This document shows positions 1-9,405 of a DNA stretch of 64,000 bases, piece by piece. Positions within the stretch are counted from its first letter, which is position 1. Each line of letters begins with the position of its first letter. Under the pieces are notes generated by a model. It had not been told where the DNA came from, searched no databases, and saw only the letters and a list, made by a program, of their open reading frames with translations. The position numbers and the translations under genes are program-made. Origin of the DNA: Paracrocinitomix mangrovi (GTDB lineage Bacteria > Bacteroidota > Bacteroidia > Flavobacteriales_D > Crocinitomicaceae); NCBI RefSeq assembly GCF_019740355.2, contig NZ_CP091819.1, positions 682,001-746,000 of the forward strand, given 5' to 3'.

Positions 1-1
1 C

Positions 2-796
2 GGACCATTAAATAAAATGTTAGCTAAAACAGCTGCCAAATATGGTTTTGGAATGGGATTGGGTTCATGTCGAATCATCTTAGAAGACAATACCTATTTT
101 GAAGATTTCAATTTAAGACCCATTTTAGGAGACGAAGTACCATTTTATGCCAATGTTGGTATAGCCCAAATTGAACGAATTTTACAAGAAAATAAAGGTG
201 ATCTTCTTAAGAAATTGGTAGAAAAGCTGAGTGCTGATGGTTTGATAGTTCACGTAAACCCTTTACAGGAGTGGCTTCAACCAGAAGGCGATTTGATTCA
301 GCAATCTCCTTTAGTAACAATTCAACAACTTTTAAATGAATTTGACAAGCCTATTATCGTAAAAGAGGTTGGACAAGGATTCGGTCCTAAAAGTATGGGT
401 GAATTGTTGAAACTCCCACTAATGGCGGTAGATTTCGCAGCTAATGGAGGTACTAATTTTTCAAAGCTTGAGTTAATTCGTAACAAAAAATTGCAAGATT
501 TTTACGGTGATGTTGTAGCTTTGGGACATTCAGCGGAAGAAATGGTTACTTTTTTGAACGATACCGTTGATAAACTAGCTAGCTTAAGAAAGTGCAATCA
601 CGTAATCATCAGTGGAGGTGTAAAAAACTTCCTAGATGGGTATTATCTGATTTCAAAATCTGAACTTGATGCAGTATATGGTCAGGCTGCGCCTTTTCTT
701 AAATATGCTAACGAATCGCAAGAAGCATTGGATGAATTTGCTGCGTTTCAAATTAAAGGCCTACAAATGGCACAAAGATTATTAAGAGTAAAGTGA
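2..796 (+). CDS. fni: Isopentenyl-diphosphate delta-isomerase type 2, 5'-truncated
   Basis: FMN-dependent isomerase converting IPP to DMAPP, cytosolic. The frame is open back to the window edge, so the true start and roughly the first 80-90 residues lie upstream. The visible part begins in the conserved segment around MGLGSCR, then shows a TIM-barrel with the NGGTNFSKLE signature and the late ISGGVKN phosphate/flavin-binding loop, all typical of type 2 (not the Nudix type 1) enzymes. It is the first visible gene of the mevalonate operon and ends 15 bases before the HMG-CoA reductase ATG. The internal ATG at 17 is not the start, because conserved sequence precedes it. Confidence 0.93.
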   Translation, partial: GPLNKMLAKTAAKYGFGMGLGSCRIILEDNTYFEDFNLRPILGDEVPFYANVGIAQIERILQENKGDLLKKLVEKLSADGLIVHVNPLQEWLQPEGDLIQQSPLVTIQQLLNEFDKPIIVKEVGQGFGPKSMGELLKLPLMAVDFAANGGTNFSKLELIRNKKLQDFYGDVVALGHSAEEMVTFLNDTVDKLASLRKCNHVIISGGVKNFLDGYYLISKSELDAVYGQAAPFLKYANESQEALDEFAAFQIKGLQMAQRLLRVK

Positions 797-811
797 TTGA
801 ATAAGTAAGTG

Positions 812-2143
812 ATGGATAAATTTATTGAAGGGTTTTCGAAAAAGGAAAGAGAAGATAAGATTAGAGCCATAGCTCAGTTCTTCAAAGATTCCGACAAGGC
901 AGTTTCTACTTTTAAAAGTTTTAATCATCCTGATGCCAAAATTCAGGAGATGATAAATGAGTTTAGTGAGAATACAATTTCAAATTTTCACTTACCCTAC
1001 TCTATAGCACCTAATTTTTTAATCAATGGTAAAACTTATGCAATACCAATGGTTATTGAAGAAAGTTCAGTTGTAGCTGCAGCTTCTAAAAGTGCTAAAT
1101 TCTGGCACAAATTAGGTGGATTCAGAACAGAAATCATTGACACAGAAAAAGTAGGTCAAGTTCACTTTGTTTGGAAAGATGATGTCAATAAATTGAAAGC
1201 CAGATTTGAGGAGTTGAAAGAATTGTTGATTGAAGGATCAGCTGACATCACTAAAAACATGCAAGCCAGGGGCGGAGGAATCAAAGATATCGTTTTGAGA
1301 GATCTATCTGATAAAGAACCGGGAGCTATGCAGCTTTTTGTGACTTTTGAAACAGTTGATTCAATGGGAGCCAACTTCGTAAATTCTTGCTTAGAAAGAT
1401 TTGCTGACCTATTCAGAGACTGGCATAAGGATCAAGATGAATTTACTCCTAACGGATTAGAAATCATCATGTCTATCCTTTCAAACTTAACTCCTAACTG
1501 TATGGTAAAGTGTTGGGTTGAAACTGAATTGGAAAACATGAACGACATTGTTCCTGGTATAACAGGAGAAGAATTTGCTAATAAATTCAGACGTGCTGTA
1601 CGAATTGCACAAATAGATCCATACAGAGCAACTACACATAATAAAGGAATTTATAACGGAATTGATGCTGTTGTTTTAGCAACTGGTAACGATTTTAGAG
1701 CAGTAGAAGCGTGCGGACATGCATATGCTAGCATGAATAAAGACGGTTACACTTCTTTAACTCATTGCGAAATTAAAGATGGTAAGTTCAGATTTGAGCT
1801 TAACCTTCCAATTGCATTAGGTGTAGTTGGTGGTTTAACTAATCTCCATCCTTTGGTAAAATTGTCACATGAAATTTTAGATCATCCTTCGGCTAGAGAA
1901 TTAATGAGTATTGCTGCAGCTGCTGGATTAGCAAACAATTTTGGAGCGGTAAAATCATTGACTACAACCGGTATCCAACAAGGACATATGAAAATGCACC
2001 TTTTCAACATTATGAACCAATTAGAAGTTGAAAAAGGTAACAGACAGAAAGTAGTGGATTATTTCAAGGACAAAAATGTCTCTGTTTCTGCTGTTAGAGA
2101 ATATGTTGAAGAGTTAGAGTTGGCTGCAACATCTAAAAATTGA
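812..2143 (+). CDS. Hydroxymethylglutaryl-CoA reductase (class II-like)
   Basis: Reduces HMG-CoA to mevalonate, the committed step of the mevalonate pathway. The protein is 443 residues and soluble, without the membrane anchor of eukaryotic class I enzymes. Catalytic residues expected for the bacterial class II family can be placed: Glu near 83 in EESSVVAAAS, Lys278 in THNKGIYNG, Asp294 in GNDFR and His392 in IQQGHM. ATG at 812 is preferred; a GTG directly before it (809) could add one residue. The stop overlaps the next gene's TTG start, suggesting translational coupling. The cofactor (NADH or NADPH) cannot be read with confidence. Confidence 0.95.
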   Translation: MDKFIEGFSKKEREDKIRAIAQFFKDSDKAVSTFKSFNHPDAKIQEMINEFSENTISNFHLPYSIAPNFLINGKTYAIPMVIEESSVVAAASKSAKFWHKLGGFRTEIIDTEKVGQVHFVWKDDVNKLKARFEELKELLIEGSADITKNMQARGGGIKDIVLRDLSDKEPGAMQLFVTFETVDSMGANFVNSCLERFADLFRDWHKDQDEFTPNGLEIIMSILSNLTPNCMVKCWVETELENMNDIVPGITGEEFANKFRRAVRIAQIDPYRATTHNKGIYNGIDAVVLATGNDFRAVEACGHAYASMNKDGYTSLTHCEIKDGKFRFELNLPIALGVVGGLTNLHPLVKLSHEILDHPSARELMSIAAAAGLANNFGAVKSLTTTGIQQGHMKMHLFNIMNQLEVEKGNRQKVVDYFKDKNVSVSAVREYVEELELAATSKN

Positions 2144-3057
2144 TTCAAGAAAGTACACATAAAACAACAACTTATCAGGCTGCTGGTAAGCTGATGCTCT
2201 TTGGAGAGTACCTTGTACTTGATGGAGCTAAAAGTCTCGCTTTCCCTTTAAAATATGGCCAAAAACTAGAAGTATCACCTAATGAAAATAATTTAATTCG
2301 TTGGGAAAGTCATGGTCCGGATGGTATTTGGTACAATGCTATTTTGGATGATAAGTTCAGAGAAATTGAATCATCTGACAGTAATGTAACGCAGGTATTG
2401 AAACGCTTGTTAAAAGAGATTTCAATTATGAATCCTGAGTTGCATATGTTCAACGATTTTAAAATTACAGCTGATTTTAATTTGAAATGGGGATTTGGCT
2501 CATCCTCTACTTTTATAAGTCTACTTTCTCAATGGTCAGATATTGATCCCTTTTTCCTTTTGCAAGAGTCTTTTGGAGGATCTGGATATGATTTGGCTTG
2601 TGCCACAGCCAATGGCCCTATCGTCTATCAAATTTTGCCAGATGATATTGGTTGGGAAGAAGTTAATCTAAGCAGTGAATTAACCAATAAATGGTTATTC
2701 GTCTATTTAGGTCAAAAACAAAGTAGCAAGGATGAAATAGAGAAATTTCAAAAAAGGCTTGTCACTATTGAAGATATTAAGAAAATGAACGATATAGTTG
2801 ATGAGGCATTGGCTAGCAATGAGATAGCACATTTTGAGTCGCTAATTAACGACTCTGAATCGTTAATATCTTCAATTATTGGCCGTAAAATGTTAAAAGA
2901 CCATATCTTTGCGGATTATAATTATGGTATCAAATCTTTGGGAGCATGGGGAGGAGATTATTTTCTCGCCACATTCCGTGATTTAGAAGAAGCTAAAAAC
3001 TACTTTAAATCAAAAGGGTATGATACCATGTTTACGTATGATGAACTCATAAAATAG
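2140..3057 (+). CDS. GYDIA-type GHMP kinase, candidate phosphomevalonate kinase
   Basis: GHMP-superfamily small-molecule kinase of 305 residues. It has an N-terminal GKLMLFGEYLVLDG motif, a glycine/serine-rich ATP loop (WGFGSSSTFIS) and the GGSGYDLACATANGP segment that gives the GYDIA family its name. The start must be the TTG at 2140, because conserved sequence begins before the first ATG; it overlaps the HMGR stop by four bases. The operon already has a clear mevalonate kinase and a decarboxylase, so the unassigned step is phosphorylation of mevalonate-5-phosphate. Assignment to that step is inference from gaps and neighbours; the family has no function proven by this sequence. Confidence 0.8.
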   Translation: MIQESTHKTTTYQAAGKLMLFGEYLVLDGAKSLAFPLKYGQKLEVSPNENNLIRWESHGPDGIWYNAILDDKFREIESSDSNVTQVLKRLLKEISIMNPELHMFNDFKITADFNLKWGFGSSSTFISLLSQWSDIDPFFLLQESFGGSGYDLACATANGPIVYQILPDDIGWEEVNLSSELTNKWLFVYLGQKQSSKDEIEKFQKRLVTIEDIKKMNDIVDEALASNEIAHFESLINDSESLISSIIGRKMLKDHIFADYNYGIKSLGAWGGDYFLATFRDLEEAKNYFKSKGYDTMFTYDELIK

Positions 3058-4113
3058 ATGGGAAATACTACTGAAACTACAAACGAGATCAAAGTTAAAT
3101 GGCGTTGTCCGTCTAACATTGCAATTGTAAAATACTGGGGAAAAAAGAGTGTTCAAATTCCTTGCAACCCTTCGTTAAGTTTAACGCTTAGTAACTCTTA
3201 CACTGAGGTAGAAGTTACTGTGTCTGAAAAAACTACACACGAGCAAGTTGAACTAACGTATTATTTTGAAGGAGAGGAGAATCAAAAATTCGGAAATCGT
3301 GTAGCAGCTTATTTGGCTGACAACATTGATAGTTTTCCTTATTTAAATATGGTGGCTGTTACAATTCAGTCAAAAAATAGTTTTCCACACTCGGCTGGTA
3401 TTGCTTCTTCAGCTTCTGCTTTTGGAGCAATTGCACTTGCTATGCTTGATATCGCTTATCAATTTGAAGAAAAAGAAATTGATGATGACTTTTATCAAAA
3501 AGCAAGTGAATTAGCAAGATTAGGAAGTGGAAGTGCATGTAGATCTGTTTTTCCTTCATACTCAATCTGGGGTGAAGTAGACGGAATTGAAGGTACTTCA
3601 AATGAATATGCAGTTGGTGTTCACAACATCCACCCTATCTTTAAAAATTACAAAGATGCTATCCTTATTGTTGAGGATGAGCCAAAAAAGATATCAAGTA
3701 CAGTTGGTCATTCTTTGATGAATGATCATCCATTTGCTGAAATTAGATTTAAACAAGCAGAAAAAAGAACAAAAGAGTTGGTTGATATATTGGAAGAAGG
3801 AGATATTGATTCTTTCATCCAAATATGTGAATCAGATGCGTTGACATTGCATGCAATGATGATGACATCTACTGATTATTATCTTTTGGTTAAGCCTGGA
3901 ACTATTACTGCTATCGAAAAAATCATGCAGTTTAGACTAGAAAATCTTGTACCTGTTTGTTTTACATTGGATGCAGGTCCAAATGTTCATGTTTTATATC
4001 CTGAAAAATACCAGGATGTTGTTGAAGAGTTTATCAACACAGAGTTGAAAGACACTTATAAAAAGGTTATTTTTGACCACGAAGGCGAAGGCCCTCAAAA
4101 ATTGAGCATCTAA
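3058..4113 (+). CDS. mvaD: Diphosphomevalonate decarboxylase
   Basis: ATP-dependent decarboxylation of mevalonate-5-diphosphate to IPP. The 351-residue protein carries the diagnostic N-terminal NIAIVKYWGKK motif, the GHMP loop PHSAGIASSASAFG and the late TLDAGPNVH segment, where Asp305 is the expected catalytic aspartate. The ATG follows the preceding stop codon with no gap, so the gene is part of the same translational unit. Its presence indicates the classical eukaryotic-type route, with decarboxylation of the diphosphate, not the archaeal monophosphate route. Confidence 0.96.
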   Translation: MGNTTETTNEIKVKWRCPSNIAIVKYWGKKSVQIPCNPSLSLTLSNSYTEVEVTVSEKTTHEQVELTYYFEGEENQKFGNRVAAYLADNIDSFPYLNMVAVTIQSKNSFPHSAGIASSASAFGAIALAMLDIAYQFEEKEIDDDFYQKASELARLGSGSACRSVFPSYSIWGEVDGIEGTSNEYAVGVHNIHPIFKNYKDAILIVEDEPKKISSTVGHSLMNDHPFAEIRFKQAEKRTKELVDILEEGDIDSFIQICESDALTLHAMMMTSTDYYLLVKPGTITAIEKIMQFRLENLVPVCFTLDAGPNVHVLYPEKYQDVVEEFINTELKDTYKKVIFDHEGEGPQKLSI

Positions 4114-4119
4114 ACACCA

Positions 4120-5061
4120 ATGGAAAAGTTCACCTCCAAAGTTTTGTTGTTTGGAGAGTATAGTTTACTCTACGACAGCATGGCACTAACAATGCCTTTT
4201 GACAAGTTTTCAGGGCAATTTAGCTATGCTGATACGGCTATTGATGCAATTCAAGCTGCTAAATCAAATCAGGGACTTAGAAAATTTTGCACGCATATTT
4301 TGGATAATCACACTGATGAGCAATTCAAATTGAACGTACAAAAATTCAAAACTGAATTAGATAAAGGACTTTTCTTTGAAAGCAACATACCTCAAGGTTT
4401 TGGGTTAGGAAGTTCAGGAGCATTAGTGGCCGCTATATTTTTAAGATATCTGGATAAAGCAGGTGACTTTAAGGATGAATTGAAAGTATTAACCAAAGAG
4501 AAAATCAAGCACTTAAAAGCTACACTAGGTGGCTTAGAAGGATATTTTCATGGCACGAGCTCTGGAATTGATCCATTAAGTATTTTGATCAATGAGCCAC
4601 TTTTAGTTAAATCAAACTTTGAAATTGTTCCGGTTAAGGTACCAACCTACAAGCCCGAAGGAAAACATGTAGTGTTTTTACTAAATACAGGATTGTCTAG
4701 AAATACAGACAAATTAGTTGGTCAATTTAAAGCAAGTGCATCTACTGCTGAATTCAAGAATAAATTAGAGTGTCAATTAACTCCATATACAAATGACGGT
4801 ATTAACAACTTTTTAAATGCTAATACTGATGAATTGTATTTGAATTTATACAATCTGGTAAAATTTCAGCACGGTGAAATGAATTACTTAATTCCTGAAA
4901 AATATCTAGATACTGTATCAAACGGACTAGATTCAGGAGATTATTTTTTAAAAATATGTGGAGCCGGTGGTGGCGGATACATGTTAGGTTTTACTCAAAA
5001 TTGGGAATCAACTCAAGAACAACTACAAGGTGAAGATCTTGAGGTTTTATATAGATTTTAA
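4120..5061 (+). CDS. Mevalonate kinase (GHMP family)
   Basis: Phosphorylates mevalonate to mevalonate-5-phosphate. It is a 313-residue GHMP kinase with an N-terminal KVLLFGEYSLLYDS motif, the ATP-binding loop PQGFGLGSSGALVAA, a central HGTSSGIDPLSI motif and a C-terminal glycine-rich CGAGGGGYMLG segment. The HGTSSGID segment carries the Asp expected to act as base in mevalonate kinases. It starts six bases after mvaD. It is clearly distinct from the GYDIA kinase upstream, so the operon has two different GHMP kinases as well as the decarboxylase. Phosphomevalonate kinase activity of this one instead cannot be fully excluded. Confidence 0.85.
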   Translation: MEKFTSKVLLFGEYSLLYDSMALTMPFDKFSGQFSYADTAIDAIQAAKSNQGLRKFCTHILDNHTDEQFKLNVQKFKTELDKGLFFESNIPQGFGLGSSGALVAAIFLRYLDKAGDFKDELKVLTKEKIKHLKATLGGLEGYFHGTSSGIDPLSILINEPLLVKSNFEIVPVKVPTYKPEGKHVVFLLNTGLSRNTDKLVGQFKASASTAEFKNKLECQLTPYTNDGINNFLNANTDELYLNLYNLVKFQHGEMNYLIPEKYLDTVSNGLDSGDYFLKICGAGGGGYMLGFTQNWESTQEQLQGEDLEVLYRF

Positions 5062-5064
5062 GTT

Positions 5065-6042
5065 ATGACAGCAATCGCAACAAGTTTACAGGAACAAAAA
5101 GAAGCAATTGAGAAGTTTTTAGAAACCAAAGCGTTGGAAACTTTTCCAGAGAATTTATATGATGCTGTTCATCATATCATGACCTTAGACGGAAAACGTC
5201 TGCGTCCTATGATGGTATTGATGAGTGCTCAAGGATTCAATGTTCCTCAAGAAAAAGCTATGGCTGCTGCCATTTCTATTGAAGTATTTCACAACTTCAC
5301 TTTGGTTCATGATGATATTATGGACAAAGCCAAATTGAGAAGAGGAAAAATAACAGTTCACGAAAAATTTGGTGTAGACAAGGCTATCGTAACCGGAGAT
5401 GCCATGCTTCCTCATGCGGTAAGTCTATTAATTCAAGATAATGCTGATAAAGCCGGAGAATTATTGAATTGCTTCAACAAAATGGGAAAAGAAGTAATGG
5501 AAGGTCAGCAATTTGACATGGAATTTGAAACCAGAAATGATGTTTCAGTTGATGAATACATGAATATGATTCGTCTTAAGACATCTGTTTTATTTGGTGC
5601 TGCTTGTGAAATTGGAGCTATCATAGGAGGTGCATCTGAAGCTGACAAAAGAGCTTTGTATGACTTTGGTTTATATTCTGGATTAGCATTCCAAATTATG
5701 GATGATTATTTGGATACTTTCGGAGATGAATCATTTGGTAAAAAGATTGGTGGAGACATCCTTTTAAATAAAAAGTCTTTCTTATTGGTTAATGCTATGC
5801 AAAAGGCCAATGACGAACAAAGAAAAAGAATTTTTGACTTGTTCGAAGAGAAGGATGAAAACACTAAAATTAAAGCTTTCCAGGATTTGTATCACGAAAT
5901 GGGAATACCTCAAATTGCATTGGATACAATGGAAGAATTGCACGATAAATCTGTCAATGCAGTAAAATCTACTTCATTAGATGATGAAAACAAAGAACGT
6001 ATCATTCATCTTGGAGAAGTAATGCTTAGAAGAACCAAATAA
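5065..6042 (+). CDS. Short-chain polyprenyl diphosphate synthase
   Basis: Trans-prenyltransferase that condenses IPP with allylic diphosphates. Both aspartate-rich motifs are intact: DDIMD at residues 83-87 and DDYLD at 213-217. GKRLRP, the IPP-binding motif, lies near residue 50. The 325-residue length fits FPP or GGPP synthases. The first motif is DDxxD, without the two-residue insertion of the common bacterial farnesyl synthases, so chain length is uncertain. A location directly before an oxidosqualene cyclase favours farnesyl diphosphate, the squalene precursor; this is inference. Confidence 0.9.
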   Translation: MTAIATSLQEQKEAIEKFLETKALETFPENLYDAVHHIMTLDGKRLRPMMVLMSAQGFNVPQEKAMAAAISIEVFHNFTLVHDDIMDKAKLRRGKITVHEKFGVDKAIVTGDAMLPHAVSLLIQDNADKAGELLNCFNKMGKEVMEGQQFDMEFETRNDVSVDEYMNMIRLKTSVLFGAACEIGAIIGGASEADKRALYDFGLYSGLAFQIMDDYLDTFGDESFGKKIGGDILLNKKSFLLVNAMQKANDEQRKRIFDLFEEKDENTKIKAFQDLYHEMGIPQIALDTMEELHDKSVNAVKSTSLDDENKERIIHLGEVMLRRTK

Positions 6043-6047
6043 TTTTT

Positions 6048-8339
6048 ATGAGTTCAGCAGATCAAACTACCCAAACTAAAATCAACTTTGCTGAAAAGGA
6101 CAAAACCTATTTCTGGAATTGCTGGAAATTTGAGACTAAAAATGGACAGCAAAGATGGTACTTTGATCTACCTACTGAACTTAAGGATATTGTAAAATCT
6201 GAAGCAGACTGGGATAAAGCTGAAGCAAAAGATTTTCTTAAACACTTTGATGAAGCCTACATATTTGATAAATCTGTTAATCCTAACAGTGCAGATCAAG
6301 TATTACGTTGGTTAAGAGCTGAAGAAGTTGATCCTCATAAATTAATTGATATAGATGAAAATGCTTCTCTTAAAGAAAGAGTAAGAACATCTTTGTTAAA
6401 CGGATTTTCATATTACGAAACACTGCAAGAGCCTGATGGTAACTGGGCAGGAGATTATGGCGGGCCTCTTTTTCTAATTCCTGGTTTAATTATCGCTTCT
6501 TATATCACAGATTCACCTTTTGAAAAGCCTATGCAGGTTTTAATGAAGCGAAATTTGTGGAACCATCAAAATGAAGATGGTGGATGGGGATTACACATTG
6601 AAGGAGAATCAATCATGTTTGGAACAATCATGCAGTACATAACACTGCGATTGTTAGGCGAAGATTTGAGTAATCCTGATATGCAGAGAGCGCAAAAATG
6701 GATTTTAGATAATGGTGGTGCCGTAAATGTTCCAATGTGGGGTAAATTCTATTTATCAGTTTTAAATGTTTACGAATGGAAAGGAAATGATGCCCTGCTT
6801 CCTGAAATGTGGAAGTTTCCTAAATGGGTTCCTTTTCATCCAGGAAAGTACTGGTGCCATGATAGGATGATCTTTTTACCAATGTCTTATTGCTATGGTA
6901 ACAAAGTAAAAATGGAAGAAAATGATTTGATCAGAGAAATCAGAACTGAAATTTATACTGAGGACTACGATAAAATCAATTGGAAAAAGGCTAGAAAACA
7001 GGCTTGCGAAAAAGACATTTTTCATCCCGTAAACAAATGGTACAAGCGCTTAAGCAAGATTACCAACGGTTATGAAAAAATCCATCTAAAAGGACTTAGA
7101 AGAAAATCATTGAAATATGTTCGCGATTATATAGATCACGAAGACATTCATACAAGATATATCAATATTGGACCGGTGAATCAAGCCATCAATTCAATTT
7201 GTGTTTGGCACATGCACGGTAAGGATTCTGAAGAATTCAAACAACACGTTTATCGTTGGCAGGATTATTTGTGGATTGCAGAAGATGGAGCTAAAATGGG
7301 AGGATACAATGGTTCTCAGTTATGGGATACTTCATTTGCCGGACAGGCTTTACTTGAAGCCAATATGGAAGATGATTTCCCTGAAATGGCTGAGAAAATC
7401 TACCATTTTATTGATATCACCCAAATTGATAGAGATCCTAAAGACCACAAAAAATACTGGAGAGATGTTACATTAGGATGTTGGCCATTTTCAACTATTG
7501 ATCACGCCTGGGCTGTAACAGATTGTACCTCTGAAGGAATGAAGACTGCCCTACTCTATAATAACAAGCCTCATGTAAACAAGGCTAATGTTATAGATGA
7601 AAACAGACTAAAACCTGCGATAGATTGGTTGCTTTTTATGCAAAATGACGACGGTGGTTGGGCTTCATATGAAAAGAAACGTGCTCCTCAATGGATTGAA
7701 GTATTAAATCCTGCCATGCTATTTGAAAACATCATGGTTGAAGTTACTTATACCGAGTGTTCTTCTGCTACCATGCAAGGATTAAAGGAGTTTTCTCAGA
7801 ATCATGACTATAGAAAAGCTGATATTCAAAAAGCCTTAGCCAAAGGAACTGAGTTTATAAAAAAGAAACAAAGTGAAGACGGATCATGGTACGGTTGCTG
7901 GGGAGTTTGCTTTACTTATGGAACCTGGTTCGGGATTGAAGGGCTATTATGTGGTGGATTAGAAGGATATGAAAACGGAAATCCTTCAAAAGAAATTAAA
8001 GATGCTTGTGAGTTTTTAATGAGCAAGCAAAACGAAGACGGAAGTTGGGGTGAATCTTTTGAGAGCTGTGTAAACCATTGCTATATTCAACATGAAGATG
8101 GTCAGATCATTAATACTGGCTGGGCATTATTGGGATTAATGAAGGCAAAATATCCTGACAAGCAAGCCATTGAAAAAGGAGTTGAATTCTTGATGTCTCG
8201 TCAATGGGAAAATGGAGACTTTCCTCAAGAAGGTATCTCTGGAGTATTCAATGGAAACTGCATGGAAACCTATACGTCATATAGAAACGTATTTCCACTG
8301 TGGGCGCTAGCCAGATACTATCAGTACTATGCTGATTAA
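6048..8339 (+). CDS. Oxidosqualene cyclase (lanosterol/cycloartenol/arborinol synthase type)
   Basis: Cyclises 2,3-oxidosqualene to a tetra- or pentacyclic triterpenol, probably as a monotopic membrane protein. The 763 residues hold several QW repeats (QEPDGNW, QNEDGGW, QNDDGGW, QSEDGSW, QNEDGSW). The catalytic motif is TDCTSE with Asp492 and Cys493. It is partnered by Cys571 in TECSSAT, the second cysteine that activates the Asp in animal lanosterol synthase. Squalene-hopene cyclases would show DxDD here. Other cavity residues are His271 in WCHDR, Tyr420 in GGYNGSQ, His486, Val490 and Phe749 in YRNVFPLW. Tyr420 and His486 match cycloartenol synthase, while Val490 matches lanosterol synthase, so the product cannot be predicted. 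It lies six bases after the prenyl synthase. Squalene synthase and epoxidase are not in the window. Confidence 0.95.
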   Translation: MSSADQTTQTKINFAEKDKTYFWNCWKFETKNGQQRWYFDLPTELKDIVKSEADWDKAEAKDFLKHFDEAYIFDKSVNPNSADQVLRWLRAEEVDPHKLIDIDENASLKERVRTSLLNGFSYYETLQEPDGNWAGDYGGPLFLIPGLIIASYITDSPFEKPMQVLMKRNLWNHQNEDGGWGLHIEGESIMFGTIMQYITLRLLGEDLSNPDMQRAQKWILDNGGAVNVPMWGKFYLSVLNVYEWKGNDALLPEMWKFPKWVPFHPGKYWCHDRMIFLPMSYCYGNKVKMEENDLIREIRTEIYTEDYDKINWKKARKQACEKDIFHPVNKWYKRLSKITNGYEKIHLKGLRRKSLKYVRDYIDHEDIHTRYINIGPVNQAINSICVWHMHGKDSEEFKQHVYRWQDYLWIAEDGAKMGGYNGSQLWDTSFAGQALLEANMEDDFPEMAEKIYHFIDITQIDRDPKDHKKYWRDVTLGCWPFSTIDHAWAVTDCTSEGMKTALLYNNKPHVNKANVIDENRLKPAIDWLLFMQNDDGGWASYEKKRAPQWIEVLNPAMLFENIMVEVTYTECSSATMQGLKEFSQNHDYRKADIQKALAKGTEFIKKKQSEDGSWYGCWGVCFTYGTWFGIEGLLCGGLEGYENGNPSKEIKDACEFLMSKQNEDGSWGESFESCVNHCYIQHEDGQIINTGWALLGLMKAKYPDKQAIEKGVEFLMSRQWENGDFPQEGISGVFNGNCMETYTSYRNVFPLWALARYYQYYAD

Positions 8340-8342
8340 TTC

Positions 8343-8936
8343 TTGATTTTTTCCGAAATTGGGAGAATTCAACATCATTTTTTGAAGTCCTACCTAGACG
8401 ATATTATCCCTTTACAAGATTTGCTTGATAAGTTGCAAAAAATAGCCAATCAGCTCAATGCTGAGCTCACTATTAACGATCAAAAAGACAATTTACTAAC
8501 AGAAATCAACCAACCAAACCCCGTTGTTTTAATTGTGTATCAAAATGATGAACAAAAATTTTTCATCAAATATAGTTTAGGATTAAGTTGGTCGGCAGAA
8601 GTAACTACCTTTCTAAGTAGTATTAATCATTACAAATTAGAAATTGCATGTGTAAATCACTTTCTAAATTTATTTCTACAAAAAAAGAATCGGTTCAAAA
8701 TTAAAACTGACGATCATATTTTAAAAAGCAAAATTAAACAGGAATCATCCTTTCTAAAGCTTTCTGATATTGCGAAACAAACAAGTTTTGAGCCTAATTT
8801 ATATACCTATCAAAAGGATGACAAAATTGTCATTAAAACAGAATATGATATTCGATACTTTTACGAAAGAACTAGTGAAATTATTCCAATGATAGAATTT
8901 TACCGATTCCTTGGATTACATTTCAAAACAAAATAA
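8343..8936 (+). CDS. Unknown protein encoded directly after the cyclase
   Basis: A 197-residue protein of no family I recognise. It appears soluble: no signal peptide or membrane segment is evident. The N-terminal third is predicted helical (LQDLLDKLQKIANQLNAEL) and the rest is rich in Lys, Ile and Phe. It lies in the same frame as the cyclase and begins three bases after that stop codon. No in-frame ATG exists near the N-terminus, so the start is probably the TTG at 8343, read by coupled translation. Its position suggests a role linked to triterpenoid synthesis, but nothing in the sequence proves it. Confidence 0.6.
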   Translation: MIFSEIGRIQHHFLKSYLDDIIPLQDLLDKLQKIANQLNAELTINDQKDNLLTEINQPNPVVLIVYQNDEQKFFIKYSLGLSWSAEVTTFLSSINHYKLEIACVNHFLNLFLQKKNRFKIKTDDHILKSKIKQESSFLKLSDIAKQTSFEPNLYTYQKDDKIVIKTEYDIRYFYERTSEIIPMIEFYRFLGLHFKTK

Positions 8937-8937
8937 T

Positions 8938-9405
8938 ATGCCTTTAGAAATTGAACACAAATATCTGATCAATCAAGAAGAATGGAGTAAAGTCACTCCT
9001 GATCAATCAATACATATACAACAGGCTTTTATCTTTTCAACAGTTGAAAAATCAGTACGTGTAAGAATTTATGGAGAACAAGGTTTTTTGACCATAAAGG
9101 GCAAAACCATGGGCGCTACAAGAAAAGAATTTGAATATGAAATTCCGAAAACAGAGGCTCAAGAACTAATCAATGACTTTGGAGAGAATCTCATTGAAAA
9201 AATCAGATATATAGTAACTATCAATGATAATTGCTGGGAAGTAGATGAATTTTTAGGAGCTAACAAAGGTTTATTTGTTGCAGAAATTGAATTGTCCAAT
9301 GAATCTGAAAACTACAGTAAACCTTCTTGGCTAGGAATAGAAGTCACCGAGGATCCGAAATATCTCAACGTTAATTTGGCTAAAAATCCTTTCAGTAAAT
9401 GGTGA
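8938..9405 (+). CDS. CYTH domain protein
   Basis: A single-domain CYTH (triphosphate tunnel) protein of 155 residues. The family signature ExExK is at the extreme N-terminus (EIEHK, residues 4-8). It is followed by the charged beta-strands expected of the tunnel: VRVRIYG, FLTIKGKTMG, RKEFEYEI, KIRYIV and VDEFLG. Relatives hydrolyse inorganic triphosphate or other triphosphorylated substrates with a divalent metal. The ATG at 8938, one base after the preceding stop, is chosen because the motif requires a near-terminal start. It is probably the last gene of the mevalonate operon, and ends two bases from the converging siaC-like gene. Confidence 0.88.
   Translation: MPLEIEHKYLINQEEWSKVTPDQSIHIQQAFIFSTVEKSVRVRIYGEQGFLTIKGKTMGATRKEFEYEIPKTEAQELINDFGENLIEKIRYIVTINDNCWEVDEFLGANKGLFVAEIELSNESENYSKPSWLGIEVTEDPKYLNVNLAKNPFSKW

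Follow-up and report, generated by a model that had tools for sequence, protein, structure and literature searches.

A sterol-type oxidosqualene cyclase with three linked active-site changes, predicted in a mevalonate operon of Crocinitomicaceae

The genome of Paracrocinitomix mangrovi consists of one contig of 4,365,762 bases; the window, i.e. the whole stretch of 64,000 nucleotides that was analysed, covers its positions 682001-746000. At 6048..8339 of the window (+ strand) an open reading frame with an ATG start encodes a protein of 763 aa, identified as an oxidosqualene cyclase (OSC) from its reading frame, its domains and an AlphaFold model. The gene is part of an operon of one direction, headed by a gene for GAPDH (L082 6353-7351, left of the window). 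Squalene synthase (G000:C1 679353-680471) and squalene epoxidase (G000:C1 680458-681774) also lie left of the window; they are followed, on the + strand, by type 2 isopentenyl-diphosphate isomerase (1..796, with its start left of the window; L082:9774-10796), HMG-CoA reductase (HMGR, 809..2143), a GYDIA-family GHMP kinase (2140..3057), diphosphomevalonate decarboxylase (MVD, 3058..4113), a mevalonate kinase-like GHMP kinase (MVK, 4120..5061) and a polyprenyl, probably farnesyl, diphosphate synthase (FPPS, 5065..6042), whose chain length is presumed. An ORF with no family match (8343-8936) and a gene for a CYTH-domain protein (8911-9405) follow the cyclase ORF almost without gap and in the same direction; neither had a match in the loci of relatives. 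Intergenic gaps range from -14 to +12 bases from GAPDH through the cyclase, and from -26 to +12 bases from GAPDH through the CYTH gene. Scans of the locus for promoters and terminators gave results at chance level.

Assignments of the supply genes came from family models and solved structures. Squalene synthase scored 391 bits with TIGR01559 (cut-off 287), and its best solved relatives were farnesyltransferase/squalene synthase entries (251-264 bits), with dehydrosqualene synthase at 46 bits. The epoxidase scored 258 bits with PF08491 and 268 bits with squalene monooxygenase 6C6N, presumably the human one (next match, 42). HMG-CoA reductase (TIGR00532), the GYDIA-family kinase (NF040656) and the prenyl synthase (PF00348) were over the model cut-offs; the isomerase (TIGR02151) and the mevalonate kinase-like protein (TIGR00549) were under them, as was the decarboxylase with TIGR01240 (162 bits, cut-off 171), its Pfam MVD domains being over theirs. 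A canonical phosphomevalonate kinase was not seen in the operon; its place is occupied by the GYDIA-family kinase, which may have this role. In the proposed pathway the mevalonate genes with HMG-CoA reductase would provide isoprenoid units, the prenyl synthase farnesyl diphosphate, and squalene synthase with squalene epoxidase 2,3-oxidosqualene. Given the squalene synthase and epoxidase matches in the operon, one stretch appears to encode the steps between HMG-CoA and oxidosqualene as well as the cyclisation; the operon thus appears to hold a near-complete pathway, largely self-sufficient for oxidosqualene, with isomerase, decarboxylase and mevalonate kinase under NCBIfam cut-offs. The sequence-only reading had placed the cyclase in a bacteroidote mevalonate operon, and the tightly packed mevalonate and prenyl-synthase genes before it agree; the search for squalene synthase and epoxidase that it had proposed found both in this operon, shortly before the start of the window.

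Both Pfam squalene/oxidosqualene cyclase domains were over cut-off in the window protein. It scored 644 bits with NCBIfam TIGR01787 (cut-off 323), 236 bits with the hopene cyclase model (under its cut-off of 431) and 630 bits with TIGR03463 (2,3-oxidosqualene cyclase; cut-off 851); we read the last as a model of a narrower subfamily and not as a definition of OSC. The best solved relative by sequence was lanosterol synthase 1W6K (688 bits), with the plant OSC 8J5Z at 509 bits and squalene-hopene cyclase at 128 bits. The AlphaFold model (pLDDT 84.9, pTM 0.86) had lanosterol synthase 1W6J and then 1W6K as top Foldseek matches (E 2.4e-54, TM 0.84-0.88). Against its closest relative the gene differs at 144, 65 and 400 first, second and third codon positions (762 codons, ungapped), as under purifying selection. 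In a 15-protein alignment the OSC motif D-C-T-x-E with Cys partners is present as DCTSE 492-496 (7521..7535) and Cys571; the DxDD motif of squalene-hopene cyclases is absent, with Val490 replacing its first Asp, while all 102 hopene-cyclase-like rows aligned have Asp there. A 40-row tree, built with columns 487 and 490 left out and 740 kept, separated 35 OSC rows, the window cyclase included, from five hopene cyclases with support 100/100. Identity of 6048-8339 as a hopene cyclase was ruled out by motif and tree, in accord with the initial assignment and with the phylogenetic check proposed for it. On these sequence grounds it is close to certain that the protein is a true bacterial sterol-type OSC with its pathway.

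The cyclase was found in 16 of 240 Crocinitomicaceae genomes (E<=1e-50), including Crocinitomicaceae bacterium Bin_13 (G026, of the same genus as the window), Taishania pollutisoli (G033), Fluviicola chungangensis (G103) and other Fluviicola. In a 150-genome sample, squalene epoxidase was present at E<1e-100 in 15 of the 16 OSC genomes and in none of the 134 others; the one without it at this level, G042, is assembled in 400 contigs, and its contig breaks off within the isomerase gene. The order squalene synthase-epoxidase-isomerase-HMGR-GYDIA-MVD-MVK-FPPS-OSC is complete in nine relatives and consistent in pieces of four (G042, G140, G132 and G010). GAPDH, one base from squalene synthase in the window genus (G000, G026, G004), had no match just upstream of the operon in the Fluviicola and Taishania loci read. 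In two distant genomes (G003 and G025, with cyclases 53-55% identical) squalene synthase and epoxidase lie divergent beside the OSC; the stretch read there held no match to HMGR, MVK or MVD beside the OSC, and MVD-MVK-FPPS are located away from it. None of 21 OSC-free loci of FPPS relatives (40-46% identical) had a mevalonate gene within about 1.5 kb; these loci are uninformative on the order of operon assembly. We also saw a Fluviicola-type operon in CP034120.1 (L006; G095), deposited as Glaciecola amylolytica; the genome falls in Crocinitomicaceae and the label is probably wrong.

Within the active site, 17 of 24 positions are identical to human OSC, including Asp455, Cys456 and Cys533; the list of positions is the one we take to line the human cavity, and the residues come from the alignment. 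The seven changes from human to window cyclase are C233D, V236I, Y237F, I338V, T381Y, C449H and G450A. Catalytic Asp492 corresponds to human Asp455, and Cys571 (7758..7760; human Cys533) is its proposed hydrogen-bond partner, a role stated for the plant OSC pair C562/D483 in the part of PMC6423090 consulted. Tyr420 (7305..7307; human Thr381) and His486 (7503..7505; human Cys449) are cycloartenol-synthase-like, and Val490 (7515..7517; human Val453) is lanosterol-synthase-like. The protein thus has neither the Tyr, His, Ile triad of cycloartenol synthases nor the Thr381 with Cys/Gln449 of animal and fungal lanosterol synthases, and it has the Val at human position 453 of bacterial lanosterol synthases. 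Every residue named in the sequence-only reading (Tyr420, His486, Val490, DCTSE 492-496, Cys571) was recovered by translation and in the 15-protein alignment, and the mosaic that it described is real.

Two further positions were added by comparison with relatives. Ala487 (7506..7508; human Gly450) is Ala in nine OSC genomes of Crocinitomicaceae and Gly in the seven others; Glu740 (8265..8267) aligns ungapped with human Ile702 and, by yeast numbering, with yeast Ile705. The three letters switch together: Ala487/Val490/Glu740 (AVE) is present in nine genomes, including this one, and Gly/Ile/Ile (GII) in seven, with no intermediates among the 16. The Fluviicola genus (g10) holds both types: of its eight genomes with an OSC, five are GII (G010, G058, G087, G095 and G103) and three AVE (G079, G111 and G132). 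The distant relatives G003 and G025 are GII as well. Comparison of eight AVE sequences with five GII sequences of the Fluviicola genus gave non-overlapping letter sets at 15 positions and five fixed one-letter differences: 368 (H/Y), 472 (R/G), 487 (A/G), 490 (V/I) and 740 (E/I). Since the distant relatives agree with AVE at 368 and 472, and with GII at 487, 490 and 740, it is the last three that distinguish AVE. In G132, the ninth AVE genome, the larger piece of the split cyclase has the same three letters; the frame of this gene is broken into two pieces in different frames (L010 / L097 and L102), by assembly error or decay. Asp272 (6861..6863; human Cys233), which adjoins cavity residue His271, is a second acidic residue; no other of the Crocinitomicaceae sequences aligned has it, 12 close ones having Asn and two distant ones Cys.

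Among 166 aligned cyclase rows, in which some genomes are present twice, the 18 with Glu740 belong without exception to the nine AVE genomes, and the pairing of Ala487 with Val490 is restricted to the same rows. None of the other 148 rows has an acidic residue at 740 (L 86, I 52, V 1, M 1, H 2, Y 2, gap 4). Codons were read at 12 of the 16 loci: Glu is encoded by GAA/GAG and Ile by ATN, a switch that takes two base changes or more. In the AlphaFold model residues 738-742 lie in one strand, which should put Cys738, Glu740 and Tyr742 on one face; Tyr742 corresponds to human Tyr704, presumably an active-site residue, and mean pLDDT of the block 731-740 is 60. In yeast numbering these three would be C703, I705 and Y707. 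Yeast C703 and I705 are named in titles cited by PMC6678101. Judged from sequence, AVE is a new active-site variant of the known Fluviicola-type cyclase. Among the papers listed, mostly from outside subscription journals, on Fluviicola sterols, on sterols or cycloartenol in Bacteroidota and on position 702/705, we recognised no report of it.

In a phylum sample, 9 of 395 genomes matched the cyclase at E<=0.001, and five of these matches were strong, its own included. Four genomes of two other bacteroidote families (G418, G540, G449 and G394; L103, L104, L105 and L106) carry deep-branching OSCs with 32-33% identity, an Ala/His/Val triad and Leu at 740; the tree includes three of them. Among 246 genomes sampled around planctomycete locus L079, the best match reached 1.2e-55 with 26% identity, and 30 loci from this sample were hopene-type with Asp at position 490. 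Viral contigs held no relative. In the 40-row tree, 15 Crocinitomicaceae sequences form a group with the two eukaryotic OSCs, human and plant (99/99), the human enzyme being nearest (89/64, weak), apart from nine Myxococcota cyclases with Y,H,I and nine deeper ones (eight A,H,V; one A,Y,V). Dahlin et al. 2016 (PMC5101207), in the part available, placed the OSC of F. taffensis with animals, fungi and amoebae. The eukaryotes of our tree are one human and one plant OSC, and its rows include no OSC of Methylococcus, Gemmata or Eudoraea; transfer of the cyclase from a eukaryote would be only a lead, which we do not press because of the two eukaryotes.

In the 40-row tree the GII Fluviicola are nested among AVE rows; a single AVE clade was weakly rejected (p-AU 0.032), a single GII clade strongly (p-AU 7.4e-06). 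A tree of squalene synthase and epoxidase (eight AVE rows, with G132 and without G042) also rejected a single AVE clade weakly (p-AU 0.046), and a 15-row OSC tree did not reject such a clade, with p-AU 0.069 without the three columns and 0.18 with them. One AVE/GII switch and two cannot be told apart on these sequences.

As to the product, the sequence-only reading had left open a sterol, a parkeol-like compound or an arborinol-type pentacycle, with Eudoraea as its bacterial example; the nearest precedent, absent from it, is Fluviicola taffensis. We infer that G058 is this species, as its gene spacing agrees with the F. taffensis locus tags. Its OSC (Fluta_3214) belongs to the same family as the window cyclase, with 73% identity and Tyr/His at human 381/449, and its operon is the same, with the epoxidase (Fluta_3221) seven genes from the OSC; at 487/490/740, however, G058 has Gly/Ile/Ile in contrast to Ala/Val/Glu in the window cyclase. 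Human lanosterol synthase 1W6K shares with the window cyclase 45% identity over 646 positions, the catalytic Asp/Cys set and Val453, but has Thr381/Cys449 instead of Tyr/His, and Gly450, Ile702 and Cys233 instead of Ala, Glu and Asp. The change of Ile to Val alone in plant cycloartenol synthase gives a product mixture, and Ala487 might compensate for the smaller Val490. In the portion of Wei et al. 2016 at hand (PMC4919349), cycloartenol was found in F. taffensis cells, and position 453 correlated completely in the tested bacteria with lanosterol (Val) or cycloartenol (Ile). By this rule the window enzyme, with Val at 453, would be a lanosterol-type synthase; the rule may be less clean than stated, because Table 3 of the same source (PMC4919349) marks cycloartenol also in the lanosterol makers Enhygromyxa and Plesiocystis. 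The same Y,H,V triad characterises bacterial lanosterol synthases in a sub-group of Stigmatella, Methylococcus and Gemmata sequences; the triad is described as apparently unique to bacteria, and the sub-group stands apart from F. taffensis in the tree of Dahlin et al. 2016 (PMC5101207), as far as that source was accessible. An OSC gene need not mean a product: in Corallococcus coralloides no sterol was seen despite the genes, according to the same part of Wei et al. (PMC4919349).

Could the window enzyme still make cycloartenol in the usual way, as the F. taffensis enzyme presumably does, with Ala487, Val490 and Glu740 compensated and the product unaffected? The 73% identity to the G058 enzyme and the operon common to both, the cycloartenol-type Y420 and H486, the space lost by Ile-to-Val that Gly-to-Ala may refill and the cycloartenol marked in two lanosterol makers point in this direction. 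Against it are the complete correlation at position 453 (Wei et al., PMC4919349, as above) and the three linked changes, one needing at least two base changes, which are unlikely to be neutral. We consider this rather improbable, and a shift of the window cyclase away from cycloartenol likely on sequence grounds.

A different outcome would follow if Glu740 redirected the cascade: its new carboxylate could steer or quench it, giving unusual C/D rings or side-chain configuration, or a protostane-, tricycle- or pentacycle-type alcohol. We know of no test of an OSC with Glu at 740. The confinement of Glu740 to AVE genomes (18 of 166 rows) fits with such a role. A docking table of human OSC, in the part of PMC8911567 consulted, lists several ligands in contact with Val453 and a single one with Ile702. 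The title of Wu et al. 2011 (cited in PMC6678101) ascribes to mutation of yeast Ile705 altered C/D-ring cyclisation and 17alpha/beta side-chain stereochemistry. On the other hand, the carboxylate might lose its charge within the cavity or point out of it, and the model has low confidence locally. Redirection by Glu740 is a tentative possibility, somewhat ahead of unchanged cycloartenol synthesis. One could speculate, with similar caution, that AVE is a natural coordinated redesign of the sterol cyclase cavity, in which a carboxylate at a usually aliphatic position steers C/D-ring closure or final deprotonation. Val490 is one of three co-switching positions, and the other two, A487 and E740, may matter more.

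For an arborinol-type pentacyclic synthase we found no specific support. The arborane-making OSC reportedly belongs to Eudoraea adriatica and, like the window cyclase, is a bacteroidote OSC. That a bacterial OSC makes arborane triterpenols is known from the title of Banta et al. 2017. Eudoraea and Fluviicola OSCs, however, do not cluster but form separate clades in the part of Wei et al. available (PMC4919349), and we regard this product as very improbable.

The reading that we hold with moderate confidence is a sterol-type AVE cyclase in a largely self-sufficient operon, a variant of the enzyme whose GII form occurs in cycloartenol-containing F. taffensis. Asp492 would protonate the epoxide, with closure to a tetracyclic 3-hydroxy triterpene, most likely lanosterol and/or parkeol, not cycloartenol, and little modified. 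Gene content, motifs, orthology and the linkage of the three positions are observations; each catalytic step and the product would follow from them by inference.

Determinants of lanosterol, cycloartenol or another skeleton are known largely from mutants. The two types offer a natural pair of one bacterial enzyme, about 73% identical, with five fully fixed differences (8 versus 5 aligned sequences), of which three lie at the active site or next to it; named strains exist for both, Taishania pollutisoli CZZ-1 for AVE, Fluviicola chungangensis and F. taffensis for GII. If AVE is indeed a coordinated redesign steered by the carboxylate, two cyclase types that differ in product would coexist in Crocinitomicaceae, even in one genus, and one product would be a bacterial triterpenol undescribed so far; an unusual skeleton, should E740 enzymes make one, would serve as a new lipid marker of bacteria. 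Products of bacterial cyclases bear on the reading of sterane and triterpane fossils.

Little further modification of the product is expected, because the genome has no ERG24/ERG4-type reductase at E<=0.001 and its two P450s do not resemble CYP51 in the solved relatives listed. The solved relatives listed for these P450s are CYP97 (LUTEIN DEFICIENT 5), CYP102/BM3, CYP3A and others; a CYP51 acting on lanosterol was looked for, and none was named CYP51 among the best 60 of 211 and the best 60 of 147 solved relatives. Long P450 matches were present in AVE genomes G000 (two), G004, G026 and G140, with a partial one in G042, and in GII genomes as a long match in G025 and a weak one in G095; there was none in AVE genomes G033, G079, G111 and G132 nor in GII genomes G003, G010, G058, G087 and G103. 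By this pattern, P450s tracking the AVE type were rejected. Hydroxylases of family PF04116 were matched in 16 of 16 OSC genomes and are uninformative. A match to an ERG4/ERG24-type sterol reductase in one of the distant GII relatives (G003:C40, L209; 161 bits, two in-frame TGA) suggests that sterols may be modified in that organism.
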